A stretch of DNA of 54,292 nt from Diplocarpon mali (taxonomy: Eukaryota > Ascomycota > Leotiomycetes > Helotiales > Drepanopezizaceae), in contig JAENRP010000223.1 of assembly GCA_024741835.1 (NCBI GenBank), positions 18,159 through 72,450 on the forward strand. The letters run 5' to 3'. Under the pieces are notes generated by a model that was not told where the DNA came from, did no database searches, and saw nothing but the letters and a program-made list of their open reading frames with translations. Made by a program: the position numbers and the translations under genes. Every line of letters begins with the position of its first letter. The first letter of the stretch is position 1. Shown piece after piece: positions 4,598 to 54,292 of the stretch.

Positions 4598-5517
4598 ATG
4601 GCCGAACGAGAGCTCCAGGACGTCCTCCAGAAGCTGAAATCCAGCCGTACGTACCAAGACCAAGCACCTCTTCTCTCCTGCGCCAAACTTCTCCTCCTCA
4701 AGCTCAAAGGCCTCACTCCCCTTCCAACAACTTCCTCCAGCATCCTTACTCTCGCGCGCGACGTCTTCGAAACCGGCGCCTTACTCTCCATCCGCGCCAA
4801 AGAACCAGCGACGTTCACGCGCTACGTGCACCAACTGACGCCGTTCTACGAGCTGCCCGCGGAGCGTGTGGCCCCAAGTAACGAGAAGAACAAAATCACC
4901 GGCTTGTACCTGCTGCTGCTGTTGACGCAGGGAAATTATGCGGGCTTCCACACCGAGTTGGAGGGTCTGGAACTAAGGGGAGGACTGGGCGGTGGTGTGG
5001 ACTGCGAGCATGATAAATATCTGGGCTATCCGATCAAGTTGGAACGATGGCTGCAAGAAGGGAGCTTCGATCTTGTGTGGAAGGCGATGGCGAGTCGGGA
5101 GGTGCCTAGTGAGGAGTATGGGGTTTTCAGTGAGGTATGCTCTGTCTCTTTCTGCGCGTGATTGAATGTTTGTTTGTTTCATTGCGTTCGGATGTATTAC
5201 ACTACGAGTCGGGGAACAAAGCTAACAAGACCTAGATTCTCACCAACCATATCCGCACCGAGATCGCTACATGCAGCGAGACCGCTTACCCCTCGCTCCC
5301 CATATCCTCGACCAAGAACCTTCTCTTCCTCGACAGTGAGGGCGCCGTGATTGAGTTTGCGCAGAACAGAGGCTGGATTATCAAGGACGGCCGCATCTAC
5401 TTCCCGAACCAGAATCTGAAGAGCGGCGTCGATGAGCTGGGTAACGAGAAGGAGCTGAGCCAGATGGCTATTGAGAATACGTTGGGCTATGCTAGGGAGC
5501 TGGAGACGATTGTATAA
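4598..5517 (+). CDS. RPN12: 26S proteasome regulatory subunit RPN12
   Basis: This encodes a lid subunit of the 19S regulatory particle of the proteasome (PSMD8 in animals), needed for the final steps of lid assembly and joining to the base. Two exons are supported: 4,598-5,134 and 5,236-5,517, with a 101-nt intron that begins GTATGC, has CTAAC near its 3' end and closes at CCTAG. Splicing keeps the frame and gives 272 residues, the usual size for the fungal protein. Residues about 70-250 form the CSN8/PSMD8/EIF3K-type PCI helical region, with family blocks such as KYLGYPIKLERWLQEGSFD and, in exon 2, GWIIKDGRIYF. Reading through the intron would end the protein at 5,161 and lose the winged-helix part, so the spliced form is clearly correct. 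The alpha-COP gene lies tail to tail, with its stop 257 bp away. Confidence 0.95.
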
Positions 5518-31642: not shown

Positions 31643-32370
31643 TTTTATGAAAGATTACGGGTTCATGAGCCACCGAAATGATTGATGACTTTTAGATATG
31701 GGTAGGCGGACCTGGGACTGGGCATGGGCATGGAACTGCATTGCTTTGGGGATTTTGCCGAGCACAGCGTTTGGGTTTCTGGGTTGCGTTCGAAGTCTGC
31801 ATAGCATAGAAGTGCTGTTCTCACGAATCAGACCATGGATTGGTATTTGAATATGCTTTGCATTGTGCCCTGGCCCGCAGACCAAACTTATGACTTGGAG
31901 AATGGCCCAGTAACAATCAGGAACAAGTGGTTTATTTTACACACAAGTTCTAACACTATGATATATATCTATATCATCCATTTATGCTTGACCTCTTGGT
32001 TGCTATGATTTTTTCACAAAGAGGAAATTTTGGCTTGCTTGTAGCAAGTCACTACCACTTACTCCAATACCAAGAAGAATATGAAGATAAACAAGGTTGC
32101 TTGGCTGAATAAGCTCCAGCGGATCCTAAGTTTTATAGAAATTATTTGTACCATATAAAGCATAGGGTTTTTCCATTGAAAAACACCCTTTCAAAATAGC
32201 TAATTTCATAATTCCGATTCGTTAGTACACTGACCTTTTTTTCTTCCCTTTGATATGCTATATTAGTTCCAAACTGTATTTTATAAGCAGGAAATGCTAT
32301 AGTTGGACTAGGTATATGAGGAAACTAGTAGTAAAACTCCATAAGTTTGATATATAGCCTATTATACTTA
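31643..32370. other. Transition from gene-rich to AT-rich DNA
   Basis: The 3' flank of the preceding gene is followed by increasingly AT-rich sequence. I see no gene. The density of TA dinucleotides rises sharply after about 32,280. Confidence 0.6.
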
Positions 32371-33590
32371 TGTTGCAGGTATGCCCGTCACATGTTTGTC
32401 ATATGATCTGTCACATGATATATCATATATATGATATGTCATATGACTTGCCATATGACTTAGCGGCTTCGCTAAGAAGCCCGCTTACCTTAAGTAGCTT
32501 GTAGTTAGAGAGCTCTTATGAATTAAGATACCTAACATTGTCGTTTGCACCTTATACTTCTTCGTGCCCTTTTCTAGTTTACTATCAAGTTCACTATTAG
32601 AGAACCTTATTGCTATAGGTTATAAGCCCTGTATGCCTATAAATAGCATTTGACAAATTCCATCGATTAGAGTCTCCTTTATAAACGAAAAGGCTGATTG
32701 ATATTTTTAAGTTTTACTTAACTAATAATGTATAATAAGCGTTATTTTAATAATAAAATAGTAGCTACTCCCCTTTTAGAGCGCTATATAATAATCTAAG
32801 CTTACGCAAGATTCGTTACTATAGCTGAATCATTAGGACTGATAGCTGAGATTACTAGCTTAATTGCTAAAAGTACTCTACTACCTGAATTACCTATTTT
32901 TAAAGGGACTAATATATAGTACCTTAAACTCGAATTTAATAGTTTATCTCCTCCTCCTCTTCCTTCTCTTCCTTTTGATAACTCTATATATATATATATA
33001 AATAAGATATTATTATTATCTTTAGCTGCCCTTAGCCTCCTTAAGTCTTAAAAGCTTAAAGGCGTAAAGGATTATAGCTAGTAGAGGAATAAGGTTTTGA
33101 ACCTTGTAAAGTCAAACGCCTTGACTATATATCTCTATATAAAAGCTAGAATATATACTCTACTTGAGGTTGACTTATAGGACTGTTCTATTATACCTAA
33201 GGAAAGGGACAATTGGGTTAGATAGGAAGCTAAGGAATCTTAGATAAAGCTTGCTATTATACTTAATTGCAAACTAGGCCTACTAGCTTATATAGAAGGC
33301 GACAAATCTGCCTTGGATATATGGGAAGCTCTTTAAAAATAGTATAAAGGATCTGGAATAGTGCTTGAATATAACGTTATACAGACTTATATTACTATTA
33401 AATATAATAACTTTAATTCACTTAAAGCTTATATCATTGCCTTTAGACTTTTAATTACTAAATTGGAAGCTCTTGACTCTGCTCCTCCCTTTTACTAGCA
33501 TCCTATTATATTTATTACTAGCTGTTCTAATAGATGGCCTATTTAGGTAGATTGATAACGCTTTAACCTTCGCTTAGCTATAGTAGTATA
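32371..33590 (+). mobile_element. RIP-damaged retroelement 5' region and gag relic
   Basis: The stretch 32,382-32,462 is a cluster of ATATGAC/GTCATAT-type inverted and direct repeats, like the start of some fungal LTRs. A frame opening with ATG at 32,728 then runs to about 33,590 with about twenty stops, nearly all TAA or TAG. It contains LKGVKDYS (then stops), GDKSALDIWEAL and YKGSGIVLEYNVIQTYITIK, and SLKAYIIAFRLLITKLEAL. This resembles a copia-type gag ('L.G..Y..W', '.A.E.W..L...Y') more than a gypsy gag. It has the same codon phase as the gypsy pol that follows, so it could be that element's gag or a separate truncated copia. I could not settle which. Confidence 0.55.
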
Positions 33591-33899: not shown

Positions 33900-36800
33900 A
33901 AAGAAGTTCTTCTTTACTAAGGATAGCTTTTAATAATATCCTACCCCTTTTGAAATTCGATTTGCAATTGTTTCGACTTTCAATAGAGTCAAGATCCTAG
34001 AGATCTCTTAAACAAACTAAGAGCTTAAGTATAGCTTATTAACTAGTATAATCGAGGAACGCTTTTATTAGCCGGATTTTCTTAACTACTCCTTTTATAA
34101 AAGTGCTATAGGCAGAAGTTAAGAGAGTACTACGCTATCGGAACCCTTTTTCTATAGAACCCCTTTTTAACTAAATTACTATTAAAACTAAAATCGGTAA
34201 AATAAATTCCCTATTAGCCGGAAGCTAGCAAATATAGAATATACCTAGTTCGTTTAAGGAACTAGCTTTTATAAAGAGTACCCCTATTCTAGCCCCTAGG
34301 GCCGGACCTTCCTTTACTGCTAAGGGCAAGAGACTATAATGCTATAGCTAAGCCAACTGAGATAAATAAGACTTTTCGAACCTAAATGTATTATAAGAAA
34401 TAGTCTTAGGTTTAAAGGAATCCTTGCAATACTAAGATCAATTTAATTGATAATTATAAAGTAAGATTAATAGGATTGCTTAAGCTATCTTTAGCCTAAA
34501 GACCCTAGCTTATTAAAGCTAAGAGACGGCTTAGCGCATATATTAGACTACTGAGTAAGAATCTACCTACCCTTATTAAAGCGAGACTCAGCCTCCTTTA
34601 GAAGTCGATATAGATATAAAACGGCTAAAAATTCAGCTAATTGAAAAGATTACCCTCTTTAATAATAGGACCTCTTTAATATATAAGCAGTAGTTAGCTT
34701 TAGTCTAAGACTGATTGTAAGTTAATGCTAACCTATATTTAAATAAGCGAGCTTATTAAGCCCTTATTTAAGGATCTACTATAGGATAAGCCTAAATATA
34801 CCTTAAACCCTAGTACCTTTTAGAGACTAACCCCTTTCGAAATTGTTAAGAAATAGTAGAATTGCTAAGCAGTTACTTTTTAACTAGCTAAAAGGTAGAC
34901 TTATTTTAATCTACTTTTTATTACTTCTATATAGGAGAAGCCGGTTATTTTAAAGAAACTTTCCCTTAGTTTTAGGCTTAATTCCAATCTACTGCAATCT
35001 AAGGAGAGGTCTTAAAATCTGAGTAGTTCTTCTTTATATAAAATAAGATTACCCCCTAGCTTAAAGCTACTTGCGCTTTAGCTAAGGCCTTTTAAGGAAA
35101 GGACTATACTATTATAGTTAATTAATTAAACGCCCTTAATGCCAAATGCTAAAGTAATTAACTTCTTAATCCTTTAATTAGAAGTAAGGCGACCTTAGTA
35201 TTATATTAAAAGATATCCGGTTCGCTCTTTAATAAGGCCGCTCGCAGTCTAAGCGCCGGAAATACTACCTAAGTTTCTAGGCTACTAGCCCTAAAGCCTA
35301 CTACCCCTTTTCGCTAAGATACGCCAGCTAAGGCTAGTTCTTCTACTTTGCCTTTTAAGTAAGCTACCTATTAGACCTATAGTAAAACTAGTTATTATAA
35401 GACCAAGTGCCCTTTTATAGGTAAAATTAATACCTTAGAAGATATAAAGGAAGATAATCTGACTTTAGATTTAATTAAGAATAGGGTTGAAATAGAGGAA
35501 GATTAGGAAAACGAAAAGGCCTAAGAAAAGACTCTTACTTAGGCTTGCAAAAGTGCGACTTATCGAAGCTAGATCTTAACTCTTTAATAGAAGGAAAGCA
35601 ATTCCTAACCTCTTATACTATTAGTATAAATGGACTTAGAGTATTATTATTAGCTTTAGTAGATACTAAAGCCCTTAATTACCTATTTTTAAATTGTTCC
35701 CTTTTTATATGTCTTTTAAAAGCGACTGGCTTTAAAATTCTTCCTCTTTTAGCCTTTATTCTTATCTATAGATTTTAAAATACTATTTGCATATAAGCTA
35801 TATACTATATGCGCTTTTACTTAATAATTGATAAAAGGCGTATTTATAACTATTCCTAGGTTATTCTCGACTTAGGCTAGTGCAATGCTATTATTAGAGT
35901 TAAATGGATATGCCGATTCCGATTTAAACTTGATCTAAAGGAAAACCGATTCATATAGCCTTTGTATTACCTCTTATCTCTCTGATTTGCAAAGGAAATT
36001 CTCATCTATCTTCCCCCTTTTAAAGGACTTTGGATTCGATCCGATTATTAAGCTAATATTAATTGCAAAGAATAAGAAATAGCTATAGATAAAGCTTGAT
36101 AGATTAATAGAAGATAGTCTTACGTTAATTTGATAGTCTTAGCTAGGCGCAAGATCCCTATTGCTATTACTAGGCCAGCGCCCCTGCTTATGACTAAGCC
36201 GGATCTAAGAAAATAGTCTAATACAAATCGACTATAATCTAACCTTATTTGCAAATGCCTTAAAGCTGCGGTTCCTATTTATAAAATCAGTACTAATACC
36301 TTTTATTATAATATAAAGTATAAGGAGACTGAGTTCTTTTAAACTAGTATTTATAAAGTAGATAGGATTTTAAAGGAAAGATATAAGCCTAAGAATCCTA
36401 ATATTAAAAAGCTAATTAATAATCGACTCCTAAAATAGTACCAATCTCTAAGATAAGCCTTTTTTAAAAGGGACGCAGATGCCTTCCTTCCCTATTAGTA
36501 CTATAATCATAAGATACAGCTAGAAGGGCCCTTGCCTAACGCCTATTCGCCCCTTTACCGTTAATCTATTAAGGAGCTTAAGGTTATAAAGGAGTACTTA
36601 TTCGAGAATTTAAACAAAGGCTTTATTAAGATAAGTACTAGCCCCTTTGCTTCGCTAGTGCTATTTATAAAGAAGGCCGACGGTAGCCTTCGATTTTATA
36701 TAGACTACTAGAAGCTAAACGCACTAACTCGGAAAGACGCTTACCTAATTCTGAGGATAGACAAGCTTTTAAGGCAAGTATCTAAAGCTAAGATTTTTAT

Positions 36801-39030
36801 AAAATTAGATATTCGAGCCGCTTTCAATTGAATACAAATAGACCCTGAATCTAAGGAATATACCACCTTTTAAATAAGGTATAGATCTTACAAATGCAAG
36901 GTTCTCCCTTTCGGCCTTTATAATAGACCTAGTACTTACTAGCAGTATATAAATAATATTCTTTTAAATTACTTAAATGATTTTTACATAGCGTATTTAG
37001 ACAATATTTTAATTTACTCTAAGAATATTAAAGAGTATTAAGGATATATTAAAAAGGTACTGAAACGACTCTTAGAGGCAGGCCTTTAAATAGATATTAA
37101 GAAGTGCGAGTTTTACATTATTCAAACTTAATATCTTAAATATATTCTAATAATGACTAGGATTAAACCAGACCTTAAAAAGGTTGAACTACTATATAAT
37201 TAGAAGTATCTAAAAACTATTATTAAAGTAAAGTCCTACTTAGGATTTTGCAAGTTCTATTAATAATTCATTTATAACTTTAAGCTAATCGCCAAACCCT
37301 TTTCTATTCTAACCTAACTGATAGTACTTTAGAATTGGATAGAAGAGTGCTGAATCGCTTTTGAAGAGCTTTATAAATAACTGCTCTCGATTTAGCAGAT
37401 TTACCATTTTGACCCCGACTTGCCTATAAAGCTAGAAACTGATACTTCTAATAGCATTATCGCCAGAGTACTTTCTTAGCAATACTCTAATAAGCAATAG
37501 TACCCAATTGGCTTCTATTCGCATATACTCTCTAGCTACGAACCTAATTAGGAAATATATGATAAGGAACTCTTTACTATTATAGAATCCTACTATAAAT
37601 AGAGACCTAAGCTTATATCACTTAAGGAGCGAGTTGATATTTACTTAAATTATCGCTCCTTTAAGTACTTTATAACTACTAAAGTTCTAATTGCAAAATA
37701 GTACTAATAGATGGAATTCCTATCTGACTTCAATTTTCGAATTATATATACTCTAGGTAAAGACAATCGGAAGGCTAATATTCTTAGCCGCTAAGAGTAA
37801 GATATGCCAGTTTATAAATAAGTAAAGCTAGATAGCCGATCTTAGGTTTTGATTTCCCTAGCTCAATTGGACCTTTGAATTAATACTAAACTGGCCGATA
37901 AATTTCTCGCCGAATCTGCCAAAGGCACCTTTACCTTAATATTAACTAATGCTTCCGATTCGACTTCGAATCGACCTAAGGATTCCTTTGATTTGATTAA
38001 GAAGCTTTATTAAAACAATTGCGAATCCTTTTAAGAGATTTATACCAACCTCCCTAAGAACTACTCTTTAAAAGATAGATTGCTTTGCTTTAAGAAGCGT
38101 CTTTGCGTATGCTGCAATACTCTCTTATACACTCGTCTAATTTAAGAAGCTTATAACCAACCTTTAAGCGCATACCTTAGTAGCTTAAAGACCTATTAGC
38201 TACTTGCTCCTAAGTACTATTAGGTTAGGATAAGTTCGGATTGCAAAAGATTTATTATAAACTGCAGACCTTATTAATTCTCGCATTCGAAGATAATTAA
38301 ATAATAAGGCCTTTTATAGCCTTTCCCTATTCCTAACTATCTTATATAGCACTTATATATAGATTTTAAGGATTTTCCTCTTAATAAGCATAGTTTTAAT
38401 CGAATCCTAGTTTTTATAAACCAACTTAGTAAGAGCGCTATTACAATCCCTTATTATAAAGATATCGACGCTTAAGGAACTGCCCGATTATTCGTTTAGT
38501 AGATATATCGATTCGGCTATACTCTAGAGACAATTACCTTAGACCGAGGCCCCTAATTCGTCTCCTTATTTTAGAGAGAGTTCTACTATATTATTAGTAT
38601 TAAGATTAAACTCTTTATAGCATACTATAAGGAGACTAACGGCCAAACGGAAATCATAAATAAGTATATTGATTTAAGGCTATAGCCTTTTATTAATTAC
38701 TATTAAGATAATTAGAATAAACTAATTCTATTAATAGATTATACGCAATCGACTCTCCCTTACGCTTCGATTGGTATAACCCTATATTAGCTTAAGTATA
38801 AAGTTGCGCTTTAGATAAGTTAGGATTAGATCTCTTTAAAACCGTCTAGCTTATAAGAGAGACTAAACTAAGCAAAGGCTAAGCTAGTAGTAGAGAGAAT
38901 GCACGCAGCTTAAGAAGTAGCAAAAGGCAATATAAAATGCGCTTAAAAGAAAATGTATAAGTCTATAAATCAATACTAAAGGGAGATTGATTAAAAACCT
39001 AAAGATATAGTATAGAGACCTGAGATAGAT
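33900..39030 (+). mobile_element. Ty3/gypsy retrotransposon relic 1, RIP-inactivated
   Basis: Domains follow in order. A probable zinc-knuckle area lies near 34,340. The protease (35,545-35,778) reads LALVDTKALNYLF, with the catalytic DTG changed to DTK at 35,662-35,670. The reverse transcriptase (about 36,560-37,260) has [19 protein letters not shown] and LPFGLYNRPSTY, with YLDNILIYS at 36,994-37,020, so the catalytic YxDD has lost its second Asp. RNase H lies at about 37,420-37,800 and ends NRKANILSR. The integrase (about 38,060-38,760) keeps NGQTEIINKYID. The frame is cut by dozens of TAA/TAG stops. It ends near 39,030 after HAA, EVAKGNIK and KMYKSINQY, and I found no matching 3' LTR. No palindrome of the 40,940-54,283 family was seen in it. 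Confidence 0.85.
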
Positions 39031-39960
39031 AGGTCTTGTGACATATATCATATGATCGACGCAAGACAGTAGGAGGATAAAAGGGCCATCTTCTATATAT
39101 AGAGATAGCATATATTGCCATAGTACTAAATATACCCTATACTTAGGACTTGTTCCTAATATCTTATCTAAGAGAGCCTACTTATAGTGCTTCCTCCTCT
39201 TGTTTTTAGGTCTTCCCTTAGGCCTATTCTTATATTATCTCCCCTTAGTTTTATATTAGTGACCTACGCAGGGATTGATTTCTTAAGATTTCCATCTTTA
39301 TATAACCTTATCAATCTCTTAGTTCGCAGATAAGAGACCGGCCTTTTAAAGAATACGTCTTTGAAACACTTATAGCATTTTGATTGACTTTAAAACCCTT
39401 ATCTTTAATCGCTTAGTTACTTAGAACTGTCGATTTTCGTTTAGCAACTATTAATAACCTTAGATTTTCCCTTTTCGGCTCTGCTCCGAAAACCCCTATT
39501 TTCTTCCTTAACTCTAAGATTTTCGGAATTTTCGGCTTCCTAGTATGAAAAGTTTGGCAAACCCTATAATAGCAATCTTAAATAATAGTGGTTTTGAGTA
39601 CTTAAGTAATACTAAGCGCAAACTCCAACTGGAAGTGCCTCCTTAGAATCTTCAGAAATCCGAATCCGATAATTCAGCCGCCTTAGCTTAATAGAACTTT
39701 AAAAATTGCCTTGGAATCGTCTTTAAAGACCCCTTTATTCTAAGGACTAATAGGAATTGGCCTAAAGGCTAAGAAGAATCTTAGATATAAACCTTATTTT
39801 AGAAATTAGTCCTTAATTAAGTAAACCTTATTTTATTACAATTAGTTGCAACGCTCCTATTAGCTATTTAGTACCTACTTAGAATCTCTTAGCAAACTCG
39901 GATTAAACTTTTAGCAGAATCCGGAATTCTACTCCTAAGCTTAGCTTATAAGTAGAAGGA
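39031..39960. other. AT-rich spacer between the two gypsy relics
   Basis: The first 30 bp (TTGTGACATATATCATATG) recall the motif cluster at 32,382 and may be an LTR edge. The rest is AT-rich, stop-filled sequence that may contain the 5' LTR and leader of gypsy-2, but no repeat partner was found by eye. Confidence 0.4.
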
Positions 39961-40939
39961 TAAAAAGATATCCTTAAATAACTTAAGACTGCCACCTACT
40001 TTTTCAATATTAATATTAGAAAACACTAAAAATAATAACAATTTTAAACTTTTCATTAACCCTTTATTTAAATCTTTTCAAACTCGTCTTAATCACTTTA
40101 AGATTGACTCGGATTTTAAACGTTCTTTAAGCCCTTTTGAATTTCGAAGTACTCCTCTTAGTAATCAATCTCGCAATATTAAAGCTTCTCCTTTGCCTCT
40201 TATAGATTCTATTAACTTAGACAGTTAGTATAAAACGATAATGGCCGCATTTAGGGCTATTATTAGTCACTTTCCCTTTCCTAGTTCCCCTAGCGCTCCT
40301 TACTTTATAGGCGCTAATATTACTGATTTCCTTAAGCAATATAAGGAAACTTATTACGATTTTAGTATTATATAAGAGGATATGATTTCTCGACTTCCTT
40401 GCTACTATAATTATATAAGTAAGGATATTATCAAGTCCCTCCTTAAATGGAAAACTTATAGTTTATAAGAACTCCTTATCAAGGCCTTTAAATCTGAATT
40501 TCGCGAATTTAATAGACAGCAGATTCGCGATACCCTAGCTTTCTTAAAGGAATTTGTTCTAATCACTTATACTCTTAAGGAACTTAAGAACTACTATCGG
40601 ACTTTTACTTATATATCAAATACCTTAATTAGCTAGAAAATACTTAATAAAGTTGAAAGAGGCCGCCTTTTCTTACTTAGATTACCTACTAGACTTTAAA
40701 ATAAGATTATTAAGCATTTTAAGATCGATAAGCAAGACCTTATAACCTTTGCCTTATTTAAGGAATTCGCGGCCTTTGCTTTAAAATCAGATCTTAATAA
40801 GAGAACTATTAATACTATAGAGTAGGAAAAAGCCCTTACTCCCTTTTATACTAAAGACCTTAAGAGCCTAGTCCAAGAATACTCAAAGGCTTTAGAAGTT
40901 ATAGAAGAGGCAAAGAAGAACCTAGTAGTCATACCTTTC

Positions 40940-40962
40940 ACTTGCGAGCCCGACCTAGGAGT
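40940..40962. repeat. 23-bp palindrome, copy 1 (gypsy-2 gag)
   Basis: Arms ACTTGCGAGCC and GACCTAGGAGT around a central C. It is in frame with gag (233 codons after ATG 40,241) and reads FTCEPDLGVK. Confidence 0.85.
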
Positions 40963-42855
40963 AAAATCCAACTTTAGAATTAAGGAACTTAAGACCTAAT
41001 TTGCAAAACTCCAAATCTAAAGCTTAGAAACTAGGATTAATAATCTCTTATAAGAAAAATAGCATATTCTCTAATTTGGTAATAGGCAAAACTCGGCCAC
41101 TATAAGCTAATATAATAGTTCCTATTACTAGACTCTTGCTTCTTATCATTTAGAACAACCTACTAATATAAGAACTCAATAGTTAATTAAAAAAGGAGAA
41201 ATTAATCCTAACTAGCATTCTACTAATATTAATGCTATAGGGTACTAAGGGAATGGTAATAGAAGACGACTAACCTGCAACTTTTGCAATAACGAAGAAC
41301 CTAACTGCGCTCTATATAAGTATTGTAATAATTGCCTTCTTTTCCTTTGTTTTATTAATACTAGGGTTATGCATATTAATAAGTATAGGATGCTTTGCAT
41401 TAAGGATCCTAGGCTAAAAGCTATCCTTATTAAAAAGCACCAGAATCACTTATAGTTATAAACTGTTTAAACGATAATATATAGTATAAAATAGAATAAG
41501 AATTTGGTCGAATAATAGCGTATTATAAATATAAATGCTAAAATTCCAACTTATATATATATAAGTCCAATTAGCAATCTACCTAAGGGAGTTCTTAAGG
41601 ACCTAGCTTCTAATCAAATAGCTATAGAAGTTAGAGGCATCTCTATCTTAAGATAGGTTAATAATAATATTTCAGCTGATATTAATACTACTTCTATATC
41701 TAAGAACCCTTGGAATTCTCAGTGTCCTTTTAGATCTTCCACTCTACTAATACTAATAAAACCAGCCAAAGTCCAGAAATTAGCGCGTATAACTTAAGAA
41801 TCTTAATATAAAGTCTAAACGCTAAAAGACACCTAATAGTCTAGAACTATAGTAGATGAGGATAAAGCTAATATAGCAGATAAATTGATTAAAGATATAA
41901 TAGACGAAGATGGCTTTAAGCTTAAAGATTAAGAAGTTGAAGTTATTATACAGACCCCTAACCTTAAGCAAAAGAGACAGATATTAAAATAGGAGAAATT
42001 CATTAATAAATACGCTAGTTCAATCGCAATAGAGAAAGCCGTAGAGAATATTATAGCCTAGCAAATTAACCTTACGTTTAAAGACCTATTTAATTTGACT
42101 AAACGCTTTGATAAAGTACTAAGAAAGCATATCTTAATTACCTTTAAAGATTTGAATAATAATAAGAAAATAGAAATTATAATGCGAAAGAACTTTAAGA
42201 AGCACTTAGCTTTAATTAAATATCTTTAGATTGCAAAAGACGAAGGAACCTAGAGGTACTACAATATTATGGCAATAGCTTTAATATCTTAAAATATTAA
42301 TCGAAATTATTCAGTAGTTGTAATAAAAAGCCCTATTATTATTTATTCTATAAAAGAATTAGTTAAAGTAAAGGCTCTAATCGATTATAGTTCAGAAGTT
42401 AATGCAATAACTAGAAAAGTGGCAGAAATAGCTCAATTGATAATCGTTAGCAATCGACTCCTTATTTATTCGACTGTCTCTAGATCGAAATACAATTTTA
42501 ATAGATAGGTGAAAAATGTAAAGGTTAGAGTTAAAGGAATTATTAATTATACTGACTTTCTAATAATAGAGAATTCCTTAAACGATATTCTTTTAAGAAT
42601 GCCTTTTATTTTAAAATCTTAGCTAACATTTAACTATCCTAAAGATAGGCTTATAAAAGCTAGCCTTTAGAATATAGATCAATCCTTAAAAGGATAAATG
42701 GTTATTATAAAAGATATAGCCGAATTTTAAAATAAGGTTTTAGGAAACGATTAGCTAGTATAAAGGCTAGGCTTAATGCTAATAAAGGAAGGCACTTAGC
42801 GAGGAGTTATAGTAAAAGAAAGGTAAGTTTGCCGATTTTGAATAATAGCGATTTG

Positions 42856-42878
42856 ACTTACGGTCTTAGACTAGGAGT
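42856..42878. repeat. 23-bp palindrome, copy 2 (start of gypsy-2 pol)
   Basis: Arms ACTTACGGTCT and AGACTAGGAGT. The symmetry extends outward through ATTTG on the left and CAAAT on the right, to 42,851-42,883. It is in the pol phase and reads LTYGLRLGVK. Confidence 0.9.
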
Positions 42879-43017
42879 CAAATCTGGAATTTTGAAAAAT
42901 AGTACAATCGGCGTTTTATCGGCTTAATAATTAAGAAAAAAGAAAAATAAGGTAGAAAAGAGAGTTCGTTTTATAAATTTCGATAATTTACCAATCATTT
43001 TAAAAAATTCAAAAACC

Positions 43018-43040
43018 ACTTATAGGCTGGACCCGCGAGT
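43018..43040. repeat. 23-bp palindrome, copy 3 (gypsy-2 pol)
   Basis: Arms ACTTATAGGCT and GACCCGCGAGT around G. It is in the pol phase, 162 bp (54 codons) after copy 2, and reads TTYRLDPRVK. Confidence 0.85.
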
Positions 43041-46000
43041 AAAAAATAATAAAATTACTAATAACATTTCCATTTACGCACTTTAAATTAATAACTTAGA
43101 AAATCTTTTATTTGTTTTTAAAAAGGAAAATTCGGACTGTTTTGCAAGATTTGATAAAAAAGGAAAGAAGCAAAGAAGCATAGTACTAGCTAATATTTGA
43201 ACTATATATAAAAGTAAGGCCGATAAAGTACAACTAGTGGATTAGGGAATCTCTAATGGCTTAAAGCCTAGAGGATTGGACGATTGGTTTGAATAAGACG
43301 AGAAGCTTCGACCTCTAAAGCCGGGTGGCAAATTCGATAAGTTTATTATAAGCAGATTTTCTAATAAACCTATCAGATATCAGCTAATAAAAGAACGTTT
43401 TAATATGCTGAAAATTAGAGATGACTTAATAGAATAAGAATGCAAACTACTTTATAAAACCTTAATAAATCGAAAGGACGCCTTAGCTTTTAATTAAATG
43501 GAACTTAGCTAGATTCGAAAAGAGGTCACGCCTTATATTAAGATTAAGATAATACCTTATAAAGCCTAGTAAAAGAAAACATTTAAGGTCCTTAAAGCTC
43601 TTTAAGAAAAGGTAATTAAAATATTAAAGGATAAGCTAAAGCAAGGAGTTCTTAAGTTCTGTAATAGCCCTTATAGGAATAAATGGTTCTTAATTACTAA
43701 GAAAGAGAAAGGAACTTATAGACTAATAATAGCAGTAGTAGAAATAAACCAAGTAACTGTTAAGGATACTAATATTCCTTTAAATATAGATGAGTTTTTA
43801 AATGAATTCGCAGGATTAACCTGCAGCTCTTTTATTAACTTCTTCTTTAGATATAACCAATTCATTCTTAATATTAAATTGAAAGATATAATAATAATTC
43901 AAACCCCTCTTAAGCTACTTCAGATAATAAGATTACCTTAAAGGGCTATAAATTCAATTACTCAATTTGTTTAAGTAATCTATAAGATACTAGTAGATTA
44001 TATACCTAATATTGCGCTCTCTTATATAGACGATATAGGAGTAAAAGGATCAAGATCATTCTATAATTATAAAGAAGTTCTTCTTAGCATACAACAATTT
44101 ATAATAGAATACATTTAAAACCTAGACTAAGTACTTATACGATTCGAAAGGGTAAGAGCAATAGTTAGTCCAAAGTTATAATACTATCTTCTATCAATGG
44201 AAATTATTAGTTTTATTACTAATTCTAATAGCCGAAGTCCTTAAAGGGCTAAAGTACTTAAAATCGACAAATGGAAAAGGTATAATAATATGGCAAAAGC
44301 TCGCGCGTTTATTAGCGTTATAGTATACTATCGCATTTAGATTAAGGATTTCGCTAAAAAGGCAGCGCCTATTTACGCCTTATTTCGGAAAGGGGCTGAG
44401 TTTTAATAGGAGGAACCTTAAATAAAGGCTATAAAACAACTAAAGCAAGCGTTACTTAAAGCACCATATCTGATTAAAATAGACTATAGAGCCGACGCTA
44501 GGCCAATAATACTAATAGTTAACGTAAGCTTAATCGGATAAGGTGCCATCCTTTAATAAGCTAATAGCTAATAGAAAAGACATCCAGCTTACTTTAAAAG
44601 TAGTCTTTAGAATCTAGTAGAGACAAAGTATAATACTACTAAATAGGAATATAAAGGAGCCTTAAAAGTAATAAAAAAGATGAGAAGCGACCTTTATAGC
44701 ACTTACTTTATCTTTAAAACTAATGCTAAAGTGTTAATAGAACAATTGAATAGAGCTATAAGCGACCTACCTAAAGCCTTGCTAATAAAATGGATTGCTT
44801 AAATAAGACTAATAGACTTTAAAGTCAAATATATTCTAGAAATGAAAAACACTACTGCAGATAGCCTTTTAAGAAGAACTCGGCCCTACCCCTCTAATTT
44901 AATTAAAGAAGACGAAATAGATATTAATAAGTAGGTAGAAAACAAAGTTAATTATCTATTAATATATTACCTTAAAGGGACTCAACTTATAAGCCTAGCC
45001 TATAAGTCAAATAAGAGAATTTTATTACCTAACTACTTAAGTGACTTTAAAGAAATCGCAAAGTTTTTAATTACACTTAAACGACTAAAGACAGTTGCTC
45101 TTAAGGATTTTTAGAAATTTAAAGCTAAAGCTCTAATTTATCTAATATAAGGAAGACGATTATTCAAAAGGAGCAATAACTCATTCCTTATACAACTCTA
45201 TTTAGATAATAAAAAACTAAGGGCTAAGGCTATCTAGGATATTTATAAGGAAACTGGCCACTAAGGAGCTAAGTCTACTTACTATTAACTCTTAAGAAAA
45301 TTCTTTTGGAAAGGCTCTTTTAAGGACTGCAAAGCTTTTATAAAAAGTTGCATCCCTTATTAGAAACGAAAACCTAGTTATAAGGAAAATCCCTTATTTC
45401 TAACCTAGCTATTAGGCCTTTTCTATAAAGTCAGCCTCGACGTTATATAAGTACTAACTACTAAGAATAGGATAATATATTTTATTCTAGTAAAGGAAGA
45501 CCTATTAGGATGGCCTAAAGGACGACCTTTGAGATCTGCTAACTCTGAATCTATTGCAAAGTTCCTTTAGGAAGACGTAGTCTATTGCTATAGACTTTTT
45601 AGCAGATTAACTATTAATAAAGGCCTTAAAAACAAAGGAGTAATTAAAGCTTTCTTATGAAAATATAGCATTAAATAGGTTCAAATCTTAGCATATAATT
45701 CGAAAGCTAATAGAGTAGTAGAACGAGGATACTATAACATTCTTAATAGTCTATCTAAAGTTATTTACAAAGGATTTAAAGATTGGATAAAACGCTTTTA
45801 TAGAATACTCTTTACTTATTAAATAACAATCCATAAACCGACCGGAGTTATACTATTCTTCCTTATCTATAGTAAAGAGGCATAGCTCCCTCTTGAATCC
45901 TAATAGCTTATTTAAAGATTGTTCGACTATAGTCAAATTCGGAACCATTCCGATTTACTTATAATAAAATGCCGATAACTTAAGCTCTGAGATATAGATA

Positions 46001-46419
46001 TAAAGGAAATTATTCTGCGAAAGAAACGATATTAGGAAAAAGCTAAGGAAGCGTAGGCTGCTTCTAAAGTACTTAAAACGCACCCTATTTAAAAAGATGA
46101 TCTTATCTTAATTTACAATATTATAAAAAGTATTAATATATCCGCAAATACCAAACTTGACTATCGATAGCTTAATCTATTTAAGGTTAAGTCTAAGTAG
46201 GAAGAAAAAGGATACTATTCTCTTTAGGAACTTAATAGAGTCGATATTAAAGGAACCTTTGCAGCTAACCGACTAAAGCACTTTTATTAATACGATTAGA
46301 CCTTATTCCTCTTAAAAGACAAATCAGAAATTAATATAACCTTCGAATCTTCTATAAGAACCGATAGCAATATAAGCAATTTTAAACCCTTAAATAAAGA
46401 CTAAGATTTTTCCAATTTG

Positions 46420-46442
46420 ACTTATAAGCTAGTCTCGCAGGT
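46420..46442. repeat. 23-bp palindrome, copy 4 (end of gypsy-2 pol)
   Basis: Arms ACTTATAAGCT and GTCTCGCAGGT around A. It lies downstream of integrase in the same phase and reads LTYKLVSQVK. Confidence 0.8.
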
Positions 46443-46500
46443 AAAGAATATTAAAATACCTAACTAATCGCAACCTTAAGTCATTATTTCTAAAATATCT

Positions 46501-46838
46501 AAAGAACGCAAGTAGGAATACTAAACGATTTCCTAGCCTATCAATTGTCTTACCTTCCTTTAATCCTTATTTTTACATTTTCGGTAAGGTCGCCTCTTTT
46601 ATTATTTAAGATATAGATCTTTTAAGATCACCTTAAATTCTTGCCTACTCTAACTTATTTTGCATTCTTAATATTGGCCTTTAATTATAATATTCCTATT
46701 ACTTTCCTTAAATAATAAATAAAAAAAGTCCAATTTCCTTAATATATATATAGTAAACCTATTGCAGCTTATATGCCCTTTTAATTCTTATACCCTATTA
46801 AACTCTCTTATTTATACTCCCTATCTTTTATAAGCAAT
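46501..46838. promoter_or_regulatory. AT- and pyrimidine-rich spacer before ORF A
   Basis: This separates the end of gypsy-2 from ORF A. It contains TTCCTTTAATCC and ACTCTCTTATTTATACTCCC stretches. The pyrimidine bias on the plus strand is what a fungal leader would show after RIP. No LTR is recognised. Confidence 0.35.
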
Positions 46839-47684
46839 ATGCCTTTAAAGAACTCATAAATGGTTTTATCTACTGCGATAGGAGATAAATAAGCACTAGT
46901 TATAAACTTCTCTTAAGATAATAGAACTATTGCATTATTAAAAAGCTTCAAATCGACCTATGCAGCCTTAGGAGATATAGAGTAATAAAAACTCCTTTTA
47001 GCTTACGCAAATGCTATTAGCAACCTTTCAACCTAAGTGGCCCTTGGAATTCTCCAATTTGACAACTTCCTAATTAAAGAATTAAGATTAAAGGGAATCT
47101 CTAAAGAGGAATTCTTAGCCGACGCAGATTAATATATAACCTTGGCCGACACTTTCAGAACAGACTAAGATAAAAGGGAAGAATCTATTCGACAACTGGA
47201 TAATTTAGCCACTAATAAGAGAGGACTCCTATTTCGTTTACATTTCCTAACAAATATTAATTCTAATAATAGAAGGCAAGTATTATTAAAAATTCTTAAG
47301 GAAAACACTCCTATAGCTAAAGCTATTCAAATTCTCAATTTCTTTATCATTTAAAAAGAAGTAGCAAAATTCTAAGGCAATCGAATTCGCGGTCGCAGAT
47401 TTATAGGCCTATCTAATGCAATACTTATAGCAGCTAATAGAGCTATAAAAAGATCAAATTGGGCTATAGATATTACCTTACCTAATAGCACTATTATTAA
47501 TATGCTAAGGCTTTGCGCTTTTGCTTATAGGTTACTTGTTTTAAGAGAAAACTGGACTCTTATACTAGAGTTTGAATGAGATTTCTTTAATAATAAAGAA
47601 GAGAATTGGTTATTTATAATCAAGCCTACCTTAAAATTCGCCTCTTAGCCTAAAGATATAATAAGCGCTAAACCATATAATTTA

Positions 47685-47707
47685 ACTTGCGGTCTTAGAC
47701 TAGGAGT
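47685..47707. repeat. 23-bp palindrome, copy 5 (ORF A)
   Basis: Arms ACTTGCGGTCT and AGACTAGGAGT around T. It is in frame (codon 283) and reads LTCGLRLGVR. It matches the place of copy 8 in ORF B. Confidence 0.88.
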
Positions 47708-49070
47708 TAGAAATAAGAATTTTAAAACTAGACCTAACCTACCTCTTATTAAAATAATTCTAGAAACCGCTATTAAACAAACTGCTCAAACGCTTAGCGC
47801 AGCCTCTTTAGAATTTTCAAAATCTTTAAAGGACTTTCCTTTAGCTAAACGACCAATTTTAGCTCAACCTTTAAAAAGGATAGATCATTTAATAGCCACT
47901 TTAGCTGATTTGCAATTTGAAACCAAAGGATTGTACGCTCGCTTAAACTCCTTCCTTAATAACTTAAAGGAGCTAGTTCTTAACTTCTTTATATCTATAT
48001 ACAACCGATTTAAAAACGACAATATAAAGGAAGACCCTATTCCTCTTATTCTAAAGATAATTGAAAGAGCTATTAGATAAATTCAATAGCTTATCCTAAA
48101 TGAGTTCGCCTTTATAGATATTATTCAATTCTTTAATAATTGCAAAAGTCAAAAACCTAGTCTCTTAAATGCTAAGCGGGACTATTTTATCTTATAAGAA
48201 AGAGAATGCAAAGAGGAATCTATTAATTAGGACATTTGTAATTATAGCAATATGCCTTAATCGGTTATTCTTAACCTCGAACTTAAAGAATAATATAACA
48301 TTTAGATATCCTTTATAATGAAAACTCGCTTTCGATAGTATCTTCCTAGCGTAAGAATCAAAGGAAGAAGACTTTGCGACCTTTATATTCGCTCTCTTTC
48401 GGTTTACTATAGTCTCAATTATAAAGGATTTAATATTAACGAAATTATTAAATACCTTAAACTTCTTTATATAATAGAAGATATCGATCTTTTTCTAATC
48501 CACTTTAATAATCAATTCTTTATCTCTTTAAGGATACGCAAATCTAACCTATTAATAATAGAGGCATCTTTAGGTGCTGCAAAATTCAAGGCTAATCCTA
48601 AAGCCTTAAAGGCATTAAAGCCAATTGAATAAGACAATTCCTTCTTATTAATATTACTAAATAATAAATAGCAAGAGGAAATAGAGGAAGAAGGGTTAAT
48701 TGTAATGCCTGAACCCTTCGGATACCGCTTCCTAACTGACAATTTTACTACTAATAATAGTACTTTTATAAGTACATTCCTCTTTATTATAAGATAAGAA
48801 GCAAAGATATATCTTTATCACTTCTACCCTATGGATAGCGCGACCTTTATACCTTCTTATTTTCTTTATAATATGATATTCAATCTTACTTAATAAGTCC
48901 TTCGAATATACTATGGACTCTACCTCTTAATTATAATAGTAAGAAGTAAAGGAACCTATTAGCTTATAGCCTACCCTAAACCTCCCTAATTGATTGGCCT
49001 TAGTCTTTATAATCAAGTCGTTTTAATAAAGAGAGATGCAAGTACTACTAATAAAGAAATTCCGATTTTC

Positions 49071-49093
49071 ACTTACAGTCTTAGCCTGCGAGT
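49071..49093. repeat. 23-bp palindrome, copy 6 (ORF A)
   Basis: Arms ACTTACAGTCT and AGCCTGCGAGT around T. It is in frame (codon 745) and reads FTYSLSLRVN. It matches the place of copy 10 in ORF B. Confidence 0.88.
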
Positions 49094-49955
49094 CAATTTT
49101 ATTAGAAAGCAAGTCTTGGATTATCAGATCCTACTAATTGGATAAGGGCCAGCTTTTGAAAGCCTTAATAGGTAGGTCGGCTCTTAATCGAATATGAAAC
49201 TTACTCTATTTGCAAAGAAGATAAGTTGATAGACTTCTTAAGCACTTAGTTTAAAATCTCAACTAGCTTAAATAACCGCAAAATTAAAGCAAAAGGAGAT
49301 CTTGCGACCTATTACTAATAATAGCAATCCAATTATAGTAATAATAAAATAAGGATACCTTCTTAAAATGCTTTCGGACAATCCTTATAAGACTAGTAGT
49401 TTTATAGCCTTTTATAATAACTATATAGCCATTTGTAATAAGAATACCTTGGAAAATAAGACTCGAATCTTCGACCTTATCTTTTCAATCTCTACTTTAA
49501 AGCAACCTCTAATACCTTAATAGATTAATATAAGCAGGACTACTATACCTTTCAAGGCAGCTTTTCATCTTAAGAACTGCAGCAGCCTCTCTAAAGCCAT
49601 TATTAGTCGACGCTCTTAAACGGATCCATTAATTATAATTGAAGTATAAGAGTTATTTCTTCTTAATAAAGACGAATTGAAAATCTACCTTATAAAATAT
49701 AATCAAAAGCTCTTTAACGCCCTTATTAAGGCCTAGACGAATATTATAAATACTAAGTCGCTTCTTTATAGACTTAAGTCTTAAGGATAATACAATAAAG
49801 TAAATGCTATCTAAGAGCCTAATATACTAATTGATAAAGGCATTATTATAAGAAAATTCGGAAAAGAGACAAACTAAGACGCTAGTATAGTATTAGACCC
49901 TAATTTAGGAACTAATCCCCTATTTTTACCCTTAAGTTCAGAAACGCCAAGACTG

Positions 49956-49978
49956 ACTCGCAAGCCCGGCCCGCGAGT
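49956..49978. repeat. 23-bp palindrome, copy 7 (ORF A)
   Basis: Arms ACTCGCAAGCC and GGCCCGCGAGT around C. It is one of the most GC-rich copies, in frame (codon 1,040), and reads LTRKPGPRVR. It matches the place of copy 11 in ORF B. Confidence 0.9.
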
Positions 49979-50231
49979 AAGGTTAGACTTAGCTAGCTTA
50001 AGCCCATAAGAAGGTTCGGATAAACCTTAGTTACTAAATCTAAGGGTATTAATAGAAGATCCTTTAAGAGAGGTCCCTAAAGCTGAGAAATCACTAAGAA
50101 ATAAGAACTAACGTAAGAGAAGAAGACTCTAAAGTGATAATAGAACTAATAATTAAGTCGATTCGATCTAGAGAATCATAGTCTACCTCCCTTTTGAAAA
50201 CCATTTAAAGAAATTGCGAATTAGATATTGA

Positions 50232-50667
50232 ATTTTTTTAAGATTATCTACTTTTTATATACCTATACCTCTTTATTCTCTATTTATTATTCTATTCTAT
50301 ATATATTCTTTACTCTACTTTATTCTTTATATAATCTACCCTTTGATTATTTCCTTTGTATACAACTTTCTAACGCTTACCTTTGAAATGTCATCCTTAC
50401 CTTTAAAGAATTATCATTCACCAATTATAGGTCCTTATATATATCATAACCTACTTTTATTCCTACTTCTAAGCTTATTATACCTACTTTTCCTTTGTAT
50501 ACTAGCGCGATTCCAAACTCTATAAATAAGCCTCTTCCTACACGACGATTTTACTTTTTTACTTTCTCTATAACCCTATTAGACCTATAATACTAGCACT
50601 ACCACTATTATCTTTCTATTATTAATCTTTTTTAGTATAAGCCTCCTATATTATTAATCTTTCTTAA
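50232..50667. promoter_or_regulatory. Pyrimidine-rich spacer before ORF B
   Basis: This is strongly T/C-biased sequence (for example TTTATTCTCTATTTATTATT near 50,270 and further CT-rich runs to 50,660) with TATATA elements. It fits a promoter and leader for ORF B. A 60-codon open frame at 50,343-50,525 is hydrophobic but is probably just translated pyrimidine tract. Confidence 0.35.
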
Positions 50668-51603
50668 ATAATCATCTCTTCGTTTAAAGCTACCCCTCCT
50701 GCCGACTAATTTATTATAGTACTATTAAGCTTAAATAAGAAAGCCATACCTAAGAAGAACATATCAGTTGTTACCTTAGGTAGTAAGTCAATAAATACTA
50801 CTAGCAATAAGCTAATATTAAAGGGTAGCTTTTTATAAGAGGGCAAGTCACTAAGATCATTAGAAGATATGGTAAGCACTTATAAAATATTAGGTAAAAT
50901 AGAACAATAGGTATTCCTAAATTCATCTATTAAAGTGTTGAACTACAGAATCTCTATAGTCGAAGAAGGATTTTTAGACTTTAATGATTTTCTTAAGAAT
51001 AAGCTTAAGATAAAGGGAATTGATTATGAAAAATTCCTATAGGAATATTAAAGGTATACTAATTCAATCGATCTATTTCGAAAGAATCGAGATAAGAAAA
51101 ATAAGTGTATGAAAAGGTTATTGCAATTTATAAGTAGCACTTATAGTATACTTTTTCGGATATACTTTATAACTGATATTACTACTAATAACGCCCTGCA
51201 AAGGCTTAGCAAAATTTTTAAAATATACTAACTAGTAGCAAAGGCCATATAGGTATTGAATTATTTCACCATCTAAGAGGATATGAAAAAGCTATAGGAA
51301 AATAGTACGTAAGGTAGAAAATTTATAGGTTTCTTAAGTACTATTATCCACTCCGCTATTCAGACTATAAAGGATAGCCCCTCCTAGTACAATAATATTA
51401 TATTACTAGACCAAATAGTTTTAAATACCCTCGGTTTACAATAGTTATAATATAGTTTACTTATTATAAAGGAAAAGATGATCTATTTAGCTAAGTATAC
51501 TATAAACTACTTTAATAATAAGATAGAAAGATAGGAGTTTATTATACCTGCTACTTAGAAAATGCTGCTACCCTTAGAAGATTCAACTGATAAGTAAAAT
51601 TTG

Positions 51604-51626
51604 ACTTATAGGCCTGGCCTATAAGT
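51604..51626. repeat. 23-bp palindrome, copy 8 (ORF B), perfect
   Basis: Arms ACTTATAGGCC and GGCCTATAAGT are exact reverse complements around T. It is in frame and reads LTYRPGL, a stop, then V. Confidence 0.95.
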
Positions 51627-51789
51627 GGAAGTACTATATAAGGAAGATGTCCTTAAGCCGGAGGTACCTATAATACTTAGAACTCAAATAGCTAACTATT
51701 GCGATCACTAATCATTAGACTTAAACGAGTTTGATTTACTATCCCTAGAGATGCCCCAAACACCTAGAACACTAGTAGTAAAGAAGTTG

Positions 51790-51812
51790 ACTCGTAAGCC
51801 TAGCCTATAGGT
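51790..51812. repeat. 23-bp palindrome, copy 9 (ORF B only)
   Basis: Arms ACTCGTAAGCC and AGCCTATAGGT around T. It is in frame and reads LTRKPSL, a stop, then V. ORF A has no copy at the matching place. Confidence 0.88.
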
Positions 51813-53019
51813 TAGAATATATAATAATATAAACTTTAAAGATAATCTAATAGACGAAGAGAATAACCCTATTACTAACGTAATAGAAATTTTTAATAAT
51901 ACTAAGAAGGATATAGCTAATATTATACAAACCTTTTCCAAAGACCTATAAAAATTTATTCTGAAATTCTATAAGTTAATAATAAAGCGTTTGAAAAAGG
52001 AAGGTTAAGGAGAAGTTTTACTAGCATAGGAAGCGATAGCAAGAGCTGTTAAACAAATTATAAAGCTATAATAAGACGAATTTTCTATAGACAATATTAT
52101 GCATTTCTTTATTAAGCATAAGAAATCGAAGGGCGACTACTATATTCTTAAAGAAAAGCCAGAAAATAATATAATAATCATATCTATAGAGTGCTATAAA
52201 GTTCCCCTTAATATTAAGATAATACTTTAATATAGCGATAGATTCAAGATTGCAGTAATATTAAAGATAAAGACACAATTAAGCAAATTTGTAATAAGGA
52301 TATTTAAGGACTTCAGTTTCGAAAAATTTTATACTTTATATAAACGATAATATATATAATATTATAAGCTAATAACAGTATCTCTGACTAATAAGCAAGT
52401 TTCCTTTAATATATATAAATTTTGCACTATATCTGATCTAAAGTTATTTTTACTACACCTAAGGAATTATGCAATTATAACCACTAGTAATAGAATAGCA
52501 AGCCAGATTAAGAAAGATATATTATTAAGTTTCGCTAAGTTTAAAGTAGAGCCCAAAGCTTTAAAATTATTCTATAATATCGCCTGGACTCCCGCCTAAT
52601 ATAGTACTATACTAACTAGTAACAACCTAATATTACTCTATAGCAAAGGTTTTTTAAATATACCTAAATTGTTCAGCTGCGCTTTCCTAAGTACTATACG
52701 CACGCATAGTTATAGTAATTGTAAAAAGAATTCATTTTTAATAATAGTATAAGAGGAGCTAAAAATGTACTAATACCATTTCTAAACCTTAAATAAGAAG
52801 CTAAGCCCCCCCTTCGCCTTCCTTTATAATATGACTTACAGCTTGATATAGCAAACCTTAAGGATACACTATAGTCTATATCTTAGTGCTCTATTAACTT
52901 ATTATAATTCTTCATATAAGCTAGTAGCGTATCCTAAGCTTATACAGTTTATAAGCATTGACTACCATTTGCAAATTATTTCTATTAAGATTAACGCTAA
53001 TATAAGATTTATAAGATTA

Positions 53020-53042
53020 ACTCTTAGGCCCGGCTCGCAGGT
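53020..53042. repeat. 23-bp palindrome, copy 10 (ORF B)
   Basis: Arms ACTCTTAGGCC and GGCTCGCAGGT around C. It is in frame and reads LTLRPGSQVN. Confidence 0.88.
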
Positions 53043-53841
53043 CAATCCACTTAATAATAGAACTATTAACTATTATATAATTCCAGCAGCCAAACAATCG
53101 ACCGGAGAATTTGCTATATAGGAAAAGTCTTATAAGTTATCTATACTTATACCCTATTGCCTTAAGAACTCTTAATAGATCTTATTAAATCTAGTATAAA
53201 GCGCAGCTTAATAGAAAGAATTGAATATTAAAGATAGAATAATTCTAAAGGAGTATATCTTTAATAAGACTACTCCATTCTTAGTATTTATAAGATAAGG
53301 CACCTTTATTAACCTGGATTCTAATAGAAAACCTAAAAAAGGTGGTTTTCTTACTATTAGTAATAACTATATAAAAGTTATTAGTAATAAATCACTTAAG
53401 AATAGCGCTAACCTAAAAGAATTCATTATCGATTCCATCTATATAAAGAAACTAAGCATAGTAAGATAGAGTGTTACTAGAGAAGCCTTAGCCAAGTTTC
53501 ATATAACACTTAATATAACAAAAGGTGGTCTACTATCAGACGCTCTTATAAGAAGACGATTATAGAATAATCTATTAGTAGTAATAACTATAAAGGATTT
53601 GTTTGCAAAAGACGTATCTTAGCTAATAGCATATCTAAAGAAGTATAAATAAGAACTTTTTAAAGATTTTACTAATACCTAGAAGCTGGTTTAACAACTA
53701 GAGCTATAGTTATATAGTAATAAGTCTTAGATAAAGACTAAGGATATAAATGATAATATTAAAGCTAATAATATAATTGATAAGACGATACTCCTTAAGA
53801 AATATAGCACTAAGAAGCCTTATATAAAGACACCTAATATG

Positions 53842-53864
53842 ACTCCTAGGCCCAGCCCGCAACT
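53842..53864. repeat. 23-bp palindrome, copy 11 (ORF B)
   Basis: Arms ACTCCTAGGCC and AGCCCGCAACT around C. It is in frame and reads MTPRPSPQLD. This is the least symmetrical copy. Confidence 0.75.
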
Positions 53865-53952
53865 TGATCTATCAAAGGGCAAGGCTAAGGAAGTAGTATC
53901 TATAGAATCTCCCGCCTCTCTCTCCTCTATTACTAATAATTCCCTTAAGGAT

Positions 53953-53976
53953 AATAATAATAATAATAATAATAAT
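53953..53976 (+). repeat. AAT microsatellite coding poly-Asn
   Basis: Eight AAT triplets lie in the ORF B frame, in its low-complexity C-terminal region. Confidence 0.85.
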
Positions 53977-54260
53977 ACTACTATATAAGTCTCTCTCCCT
54001 ATCGGCAAAAGCCGTTATACTATACTAGCATCCGCAAGGAGTATAAAAGCTCCCGCCACACTAAGACCTGCCTTATCAGACACTAATAGCAATGCTATAA
54101 GAAGAAGTGGTCGTTTAGCAAAGAGAGTATTATCTAATAATAGTTCTCCTTATCCTTTAAAGAGAACTAAGGAAAACTAATGCCTAGGTTGGTTCTATTT
54201 TAATTGTTTTTTTTTATAATTCTATAGCTTATTTATTTGTTTTACTAGTTTCTTTTTCTA

Positions 54261-54283
54261 ACTCTTAGGCCTGGCCTATAGGT
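54261..54283. repeat. 23-bp palindrome, copy 12 (after ORF B)
   Basis: Arms ACTCTTAGGCC and GGCCTATAGGT around T. It is the only copy outside a traced ORF, 81 bp past the ORF B stop and 9 bp from the window end, so it may belong to a further element. Confidence 0.88.
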
Positions 54284-54292
54284 AAAAAGCGC

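Follow-up and report, generated by a model that had tools for sequence, protein, structure and literature searches.

A short palindromic repeat dispersed among retroelements of the Diplocarpon lineage

Examining a 54,292-nucleotide stretch of the Diplocarpon mali genome (GCA_024741835.1, contig JAENRP010000223.1, positions 18,159 to 72,450 of the forward strand; the whole stretch is called the window below), we found 14 copies of a 23-bp palindrome, all of them in a single Ty3-like retroelement damaged by repeat-induced point mutation (RIP). This element occupies 39012..54292 on the + strand, its start near 39012 being placed by similarity, and continues beyond the window end. Likeness at the DNA level connects 25 sites in unrelated repeats, some of which share sequence variants or have expanded in tandem, and a homologous protein from a related genus lacks the peptides that the palindrome encodes. 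On balance we lean towards the reading that these are lineage-specific short palindromic repeats that spread between and within long terminal repeat (LTR) retroelements of the Diplocarpon lineage and were then multiplied by them as passengers. Inside coding regions, the palindrome is best read as being tolerated in the form of an in-frame linker peptide, TRxPGxRV.

Palindrome copies in the window

The palindrome consists of a 23-bp core flanked on each side by about 5 further bases that are more weakly conserved, with a graded outward preference R-A-T-T-Y-N, and it occurs with two arm types, ACTCGCGGGCC and ACTCCTAGGCC. A preliminary description of the window had claimed twelve copies between 40940 and 54283; all twelve exist, and two more, at 39931 and 42856, had been missed. 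When C-to-T and G-to-A changes are forgiven, 13 places in the window score at least 30, compared with 2 in ten simulated windows, and these comprise 12 palindrome copies and one chance-like place at 31873. The copies at 42856 and 47685 score just 26 and 27, a range also attained by simulated sequence, and were accepted because less damaged copies of the element show clear palindromes at the same positions. The further remark that no copy was seen elsewhere stands for the rest of the window, where no convincing copy precedes 39931 and none is found in the gene-bearing part (1-32000), but not for the genome, which holds many.

The main Ty3-like element is ordered as leader, gag, pol, and then two long open reading frames (ORFs), A and B, and 12 of the 14 copies lie in ORFs, all on the + strand. 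The leader copy, before gag (39931..39953, no strand assigned), has an ACTCCT arm and looks non-coding. One copy lies in gag (40940..40962), where it reads FTCEPDLGVKS in a frame taken from our own ORF reading. Two copies occupy the linker of pol before the reverse transcriptase (RT), one at 42856..42878, a T9/A15 variant, and the other at 43018..43040; another is found in the linker between RNase H and integrase (44985..45007) and one in the pol tail past the integrase (46420..46442). ORF A carries three copies (47685..47707, again a T9/A15 variant, 49071..49093, and 49956..49978) and ORF B four (51604..51626, 51790..51812, and two with an ACTCCT arm, 53020..53042 and 53842..53864). The last copy, 3' of ORF B (54261..54283, no strand assigned), is apparently non-coding.

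Distribution in the genome

The preliminary description had looked to a genome-wide search, in which the palindrome proved abundant, with copies also in non-coding parts of elements. The GC-rich form is matched at no more than 3 mismatches in 1317 places and the RIP-tolerant form exactly in 784, compared with 0 for the reversed-pattern control in both searches; many of these places are one site multiplied by element copy number and not independent insertions. They are spread over many contigs, up to 560 kb, in RIP-affected retroelement-like repeats. Copies recur at homologous positions across many element copies, with fixed spacings and 3-kb flanks that are 79-90% identical. For example, 197 places have the flank pattern of the site at 49956, and the fetched ones (loci L023-L037) are that site in 15 of 15 cases. 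An exact search with the GC-rich form, the sole form searched, returned 0 matches both from viral contigs and from a collection of prokaryote genomes.

Contexts were surveyed for the best 50 of the 1317 places, a sample biased toward less damaged copies, the other 1267 not being inspected singly. All 50 are in repeats read as retroelements and none is in a host gene; 18 were placed through fetched loci, and each of the 32 others matched a known context by its flank. Four contexts emerged: the main Ty3-like element, a Copia element, a second Ty3-like element (L051, L052), and a short LTR-type repeat (L001, L022, L049, L050). By our own frame reading, the copy in the second Ty3-like element lies in its linker between RNase H and integrase. 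The short LTR-type repeat, as we read it, resembles the main element at its ends and is perhaps a non-autonomous relative of it. Four palindromes are packed into about 570 bp of this short repeat (L001, 957-1523; also seen in L022 and L049). The catalogue holds 25 sites, some within coding linkers and others in leaders or 3' ends, with L001:957 being the counterpart of the leader copy at 39931.

Codon phase

Frames were taken from open stretches and, for pol, also from an alignment with nine homologues. The statement that ACT is a codon in all eleven ORF copies then known applies to 10 of those 11, or to 11 of 12 when 42856 is included. The exception is 44985, where a pol frame uninterrupted between RNase H and the integrase part reads LASPACES, with the A in third codon position. 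For the main element, 11 of 12 copies in ACT phase corresponds to a P of 1.4e-4 with three phases available and 0.003 with two, the sites being taken as independent. All five coding copies of the Copia element, read from the intact protein P0035, are in the same phase, as is the one coding copy of the second Ty3-like element. Thus, 17 of 18 pooled coding sites (12 main, 5 Copia, 1 second Ty3-like) share the phase, for which P is 2.9e-7 (three phases) or 7e-5 (two phases) if the sites are independent. Since the Copia copies are partly tandem and ORFs A and B are paralogous, we take these values as support for a real bias and not as precise. The copies in L049 and L050, both in the ACT phase of one frame, were left out of the count, the coding status of the short LTR-type repeat being unclear. 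The preliminary view that stops do not force the phase is right only in part: after the usual left flank, TTG, the initial A of the palindrome completes a TGA, which disfavours one phase.

Signs of copying between sites

Several features suggest that DNA, and not only a peptide, has passed from site to site. Two copies of the main element, 42856 and 47685, have the form with T9, A15, and G19, which recurs in reversed orientation and between different outer flanks in the short LTR-type repeat; an identical 23-mer of this form occurs in pol at L021:729 and, reversed, at L049:280 and L050:274. Moreover, runs of at least 7 identical flank bases connect different sites in 12 cases, compared with 1.84 in controls, and 9 of these 12 are not between Copia sites, 3 being so. 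For the palindromes of ORFs A and B, common descent and independent gain are indistinguishable, because their pairs are identical at 15-16 of 23 positions and the mean over 66 site pairs is 16.3.

The Copia element carries two palindromes in its gag-protease linker, three in its integrase-RT linker, and one 3' of its ORF. Of 19 places searched for the integrase-RT array, two (L057 and L063) do not contain it; among the other 17, it has 2 units in five (one of them rearranged upstream), 3 in eleven, and 4 in one, and every one of the 30 spacings is a multiple of 3 bp. In locus L056 (C45:202600-208000, reverse-complement 3084-3199), the array can be seen as a variable in-frame tandem repeat of 2-4 units at spacings of 45-54 bp around the palindrome. 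The 15-mer ATTAAGGGGTGATTT directly precedes two of the Copia palindromes, the 3' one and the first of the integrase-RT array. It has three occurrences and one variant in the Copia element, and a palindrome comes next after 2 of the 4. Repeated strings of it are visible in the Copia 3' end (L056, reverse-complement 5006-5140) and also in the coding integrase-RT linker.

A Copia piece in the window itself (32444-33586), 89.7% identical to L056, was considered as an empty site and set aside, as it ends before the palindrome-bearing linkers and covers no site.

Homologous proteins of relatives

Two intact proteins, P0001 and the Copia protein P0035 of D. coronariae, carry the peptides. P0035 is 59% identical to its Rhynchosporium graminicola homologue P0036, the sole close one found, which lacks the palindrome peptides. 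Between fixed anchors, the gag-protease linker of P0036 is 26 amino acids shorter than that of P0035, which has two units 16 amino acids apart. Subtracting one 16-amino-acid tandem period leaves 10 amino acids (30 bp) per unit, a figure to be taken with care as the linker is otherwise poorly conserved. The integrase-RT linker of P0036 shows no motif, its RGDS being the counterpart of RGDLTPGPGPRV in P0035.

Among 33 homologous Ty3-like pol proteins, no peptide match rises significantly above shuffled proteins, the best motif score of 12.4 (in P0002, outside the linker before the RT) falling within the shuffled range, whose median of maxima is 11.6. In the linker before the RT, THEPVSSV and TREPVSQA stand at residues 26 and 55 of P0002, which is the closest Ty3-like pol of metagenomic origin, and P0003 has LREPGSR; neither is significant.

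The host element and its surroundings

In the less damaged element copy L021, pol matches the RNase H and integrase zinc-binding families of Pfam. Downstream of pol, the two long extra ORFs, about 26% identical to each other, are ORF A (46820..50150, +, approximate ends), which has the intact homologue P0001 in another assembly, of D. coronariae, and ORF B (50869..54120, +, approximate ends), which shares 26% identity with P0001 in an alignment of 1070 columns. For ORF A, 426 residues were compared with Pfam, and no family matched. Compared with the ORF A of L021, 175 of the 193 residue differences of P0001 are explicable by C-to-T or G-to-A changes. Among 623 candidate ORF A matches in this assembly, the 42 best, which were scored, all contain stops.

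No Pfam match was obtained for three ORF pieces at 35491-39177. Window positions 1-32000, beside the AT-rich repeat block, have higher GC and genes for a COPA/B-like coatomer protein, a UDP-glucose:glycoprotein glucosyltransferase, and DASH Spc34. Insertion of an element beside a palindrome (L022) was considered as a sign of target choice and rejected, being a single case with no palindrome seen beside the start of the window element near 39012.

How the palindromes may have spread

If the palindromes did spread between retroelements, their copying could have taken place during reverse transcription, a setting that fits because all examined places are in retroelements, arrays grow in tandem, flanks are carried along, and the families involved are unrelated. 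The palindrome would fold into a hairpin in the element RNA, at which the reverse transcriptase may stall and switch template, so that the hairpin and a little flank would be copied elsewhere in the same or a co-packaged RNA or be repeated in tandem. We infer that such switching at the hairpin is the copying mechanism. Folding was compared with shuffled sequences for six copies and was clearly better in one (z -5.2) and moderately better in two (z -2.6 and -2.5). Each founding event would have added about 30 bp, or 10 codons, to a linker between domains, where the additional TRxPGxRV peptide would do little harm, with copies in harmful frames and positions being lost. The ACT phase would be favored in that one other phase hits the flank TGA, and perhaps in that a Pro/Gly-rich peptide is the most benign.

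A bolder version, which we put forward tentatively and with distinctly limited confidence, has the palindrome as a hairpin RNA word parasitic on LTR retroelements and multiplying by provoking the reverse transcriptase to switch between co-packaged templates from different families. Such a parasite would need no enzyme of its own, would be confined to retroelements, would grow tandem arrays, and would survive in ORFs as a harmless linker of whole codons.

Several observations count against spread by copying between retroelements. For the remaining three of the six copies folded, which include that of the window and the Copia array, stability does not clearly exceed that of shuffles (z -1.05, -1.43, and -0.24). 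A gapped comparison of 26 sequences gave no pair of filled and empty sites at the DNA level. Target duplication is not significant over 25 sites at periods 26-45 (the best period is 30, with P 0.07 before correction), and flanking direct repeats are weak, with runs of at least 5 bases at 4 of 21 sites (P 0.035); AAAAAC at 43018 and TGATTTT at the Copia 3' copy are single suggestive cases. ATTAAGGGGTGATTT may predate the palindrome, since it also occurs in the Copia 3' end with no palindrome after it. In the 33 Ty3-like pol proteins, 8 stretches score at least 8, compared with 4.8 in shuffles, so a trace of the peptide elsewhere is possible. The phase bias (P 7e-5 with two open phases) exceeds what frame tolerance alone would give, though the sites are not independent. 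Finally, a pyrimidine occupies position -2 in the 784 exact places, both strands considered, apart from a single exception found; this resembles a binding-site preference.

This last preference, together with the graded flank consensus around the core, would also suit the palindrome being a functional site in DNA or RNA, such as a protein-binding palindrome or a packaging or dimerization hairpin, present in many copies in several retroelements and kept or re-evolved by selection. The spread of copies over leader, ORFs, and 3' ends agrees with such a role, as does the identity of 15-16 of 23 bases at paralogous sites of ORFs A and B while the proteins are 26% identical. However, the variant sharing several bases, the shared flanks, and the tandem arrays point to copying. 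Nor can the site be a general need of these elements, because the Rhynchosporium Copia homologue lacks the peptides and no Ty3-like homologue is significantly above shuffles. We therefore regard a functional site as rather unlikely.

A DNA-transposon-like mini element, of the miniature inverted-repeat transposable element or repetitive extragenic palindromic (REP) type, with a transposase acting on the palindrome ends, is improbable. The flanking direct repeats just described would suit it, but the 25 sites show no constant target-site duplication and no significant period between 26 and 45, and the 50 best of 1317 places all fall in repeats read as retroelements. No mobilizing enzyme turned up, in an analysis that made no search aimed at one.

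Selection on the peptide itself, with the DNA symmetry coincidental, had been offered as an alternative in the preliminary description; the peptide might serve, for example, in proteolytic processing or as a flexible linker at domain junctions. The shared phase of 17 of 18 coding sites and the location of sites in gag-protease, before-RT, RNase H-integrase, and integrase-RT linkers would both follow from it. However, 44985 lies in such a linker and is out of phase, and the copies at 39931, 54261, and the Copia 3' end look non-coding, making the peptide alone the weakest when set against a functional site or a transposase. Moreover, the DNA is shared as well as the peptide (ACT is the first triplet at 11 of 12 tabulated sites), and the Rhynchosporium homologue does without the peptide. 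This explanation is thus disfavored, and we consider it quite improbable.

Chance, low complexity, or RIP artifact is refuted for the family as a whole: copies do lie in AT-rich RIP-damaged DNA, and the scores of 42856 and 47685, viewed in isolation, are no higher than simulated sequence can reach, but the reversed-pattern control gave 0 compared with 1317 and 784, RIP would reduce and not create GC-rich arms, and the intact P0001 and P0035 carry the peptides.

Comparison with known palindromic repeats

Short palindromes that invade genes are already known in bacteria and mitochondria. If the family described here is indeed a nuclear one carried by retroelements, it would preserve a natural history of exchange between unrelated retroelements (Copia and Ty3-like), would allow the role of hairpins in driving recombination as RNA is reverse transcribed to be tested, and would supply polyproteins with in-frame linker peptides. 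The REP sequences of bacteria, with RAYT (REP-associated tyrosine) transposases, are palindromes of 20-40 nucleotides that are extragenic, reach high copy numbers, and are tied to their transposase. The Diplocarpon repeat is likewise palindromic and of high copy number, but its copies are mostly coding and no transposase turned up, none having been specifically searched for. Its integrase-RT array in the Copia element resembles coding minisatellites in being a variable in-frame tandem repeat, whereas the palindrome unit also occurs in single copies, at many sites unrelated to one another and in elements other than Copia.

No account of this palindrome family was found in titles and the openings of abstracts of the library searched, and the main text of the D. 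coronariae genome paper (PMC11527701) contains no word beginning with "palindrom". The closest parallel in bacteria, already drawn in the preliminary description, is that of Rickettsia palindromic elements, which are about 150 bp long and lie in frame in unrelated bacterial ORFs, giving a shared peptide (PMC10969869). The likeness extends to an in-frame palindrome with a shared peptide in gag, pol, ORF A, ORF B, the Copia element, and the second Ty3-like pol, to the relative's homologue without the peptide, and to additional non-coding copies. On the other side, no significant target duplication and no DNA-level empty site were found, nor did a mobilizing enzyme turn up, no search having been aimed at one; in contrast to a repeat of about 150 bp in bacterial genes, the Diplocarpon palindrome has a 23-bp core, resides in fungal nuclear LTR-type repeats, and has no host gene among its 50 best places. 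Yeast mitochondrial GC clusters such as GC42 are described as short GC-rich palindromes with related forms, copy number change, and putative co-conversion of flanks, mostly intergenic and with short flanking direct repeats reported (PMC4478555). The Diplocarpon palindromes share with them the GC-rich palindromic character, the related forms, the change in copy number, and the putative flank co-conversion, but are nuclear and mostly coding, with no significant target duplication. Thus, the family is best read as a short palindromic dispersed repeat that works like the Rickettsia palindromic elements and the mitochondrial GC clusters and belongs to neither.

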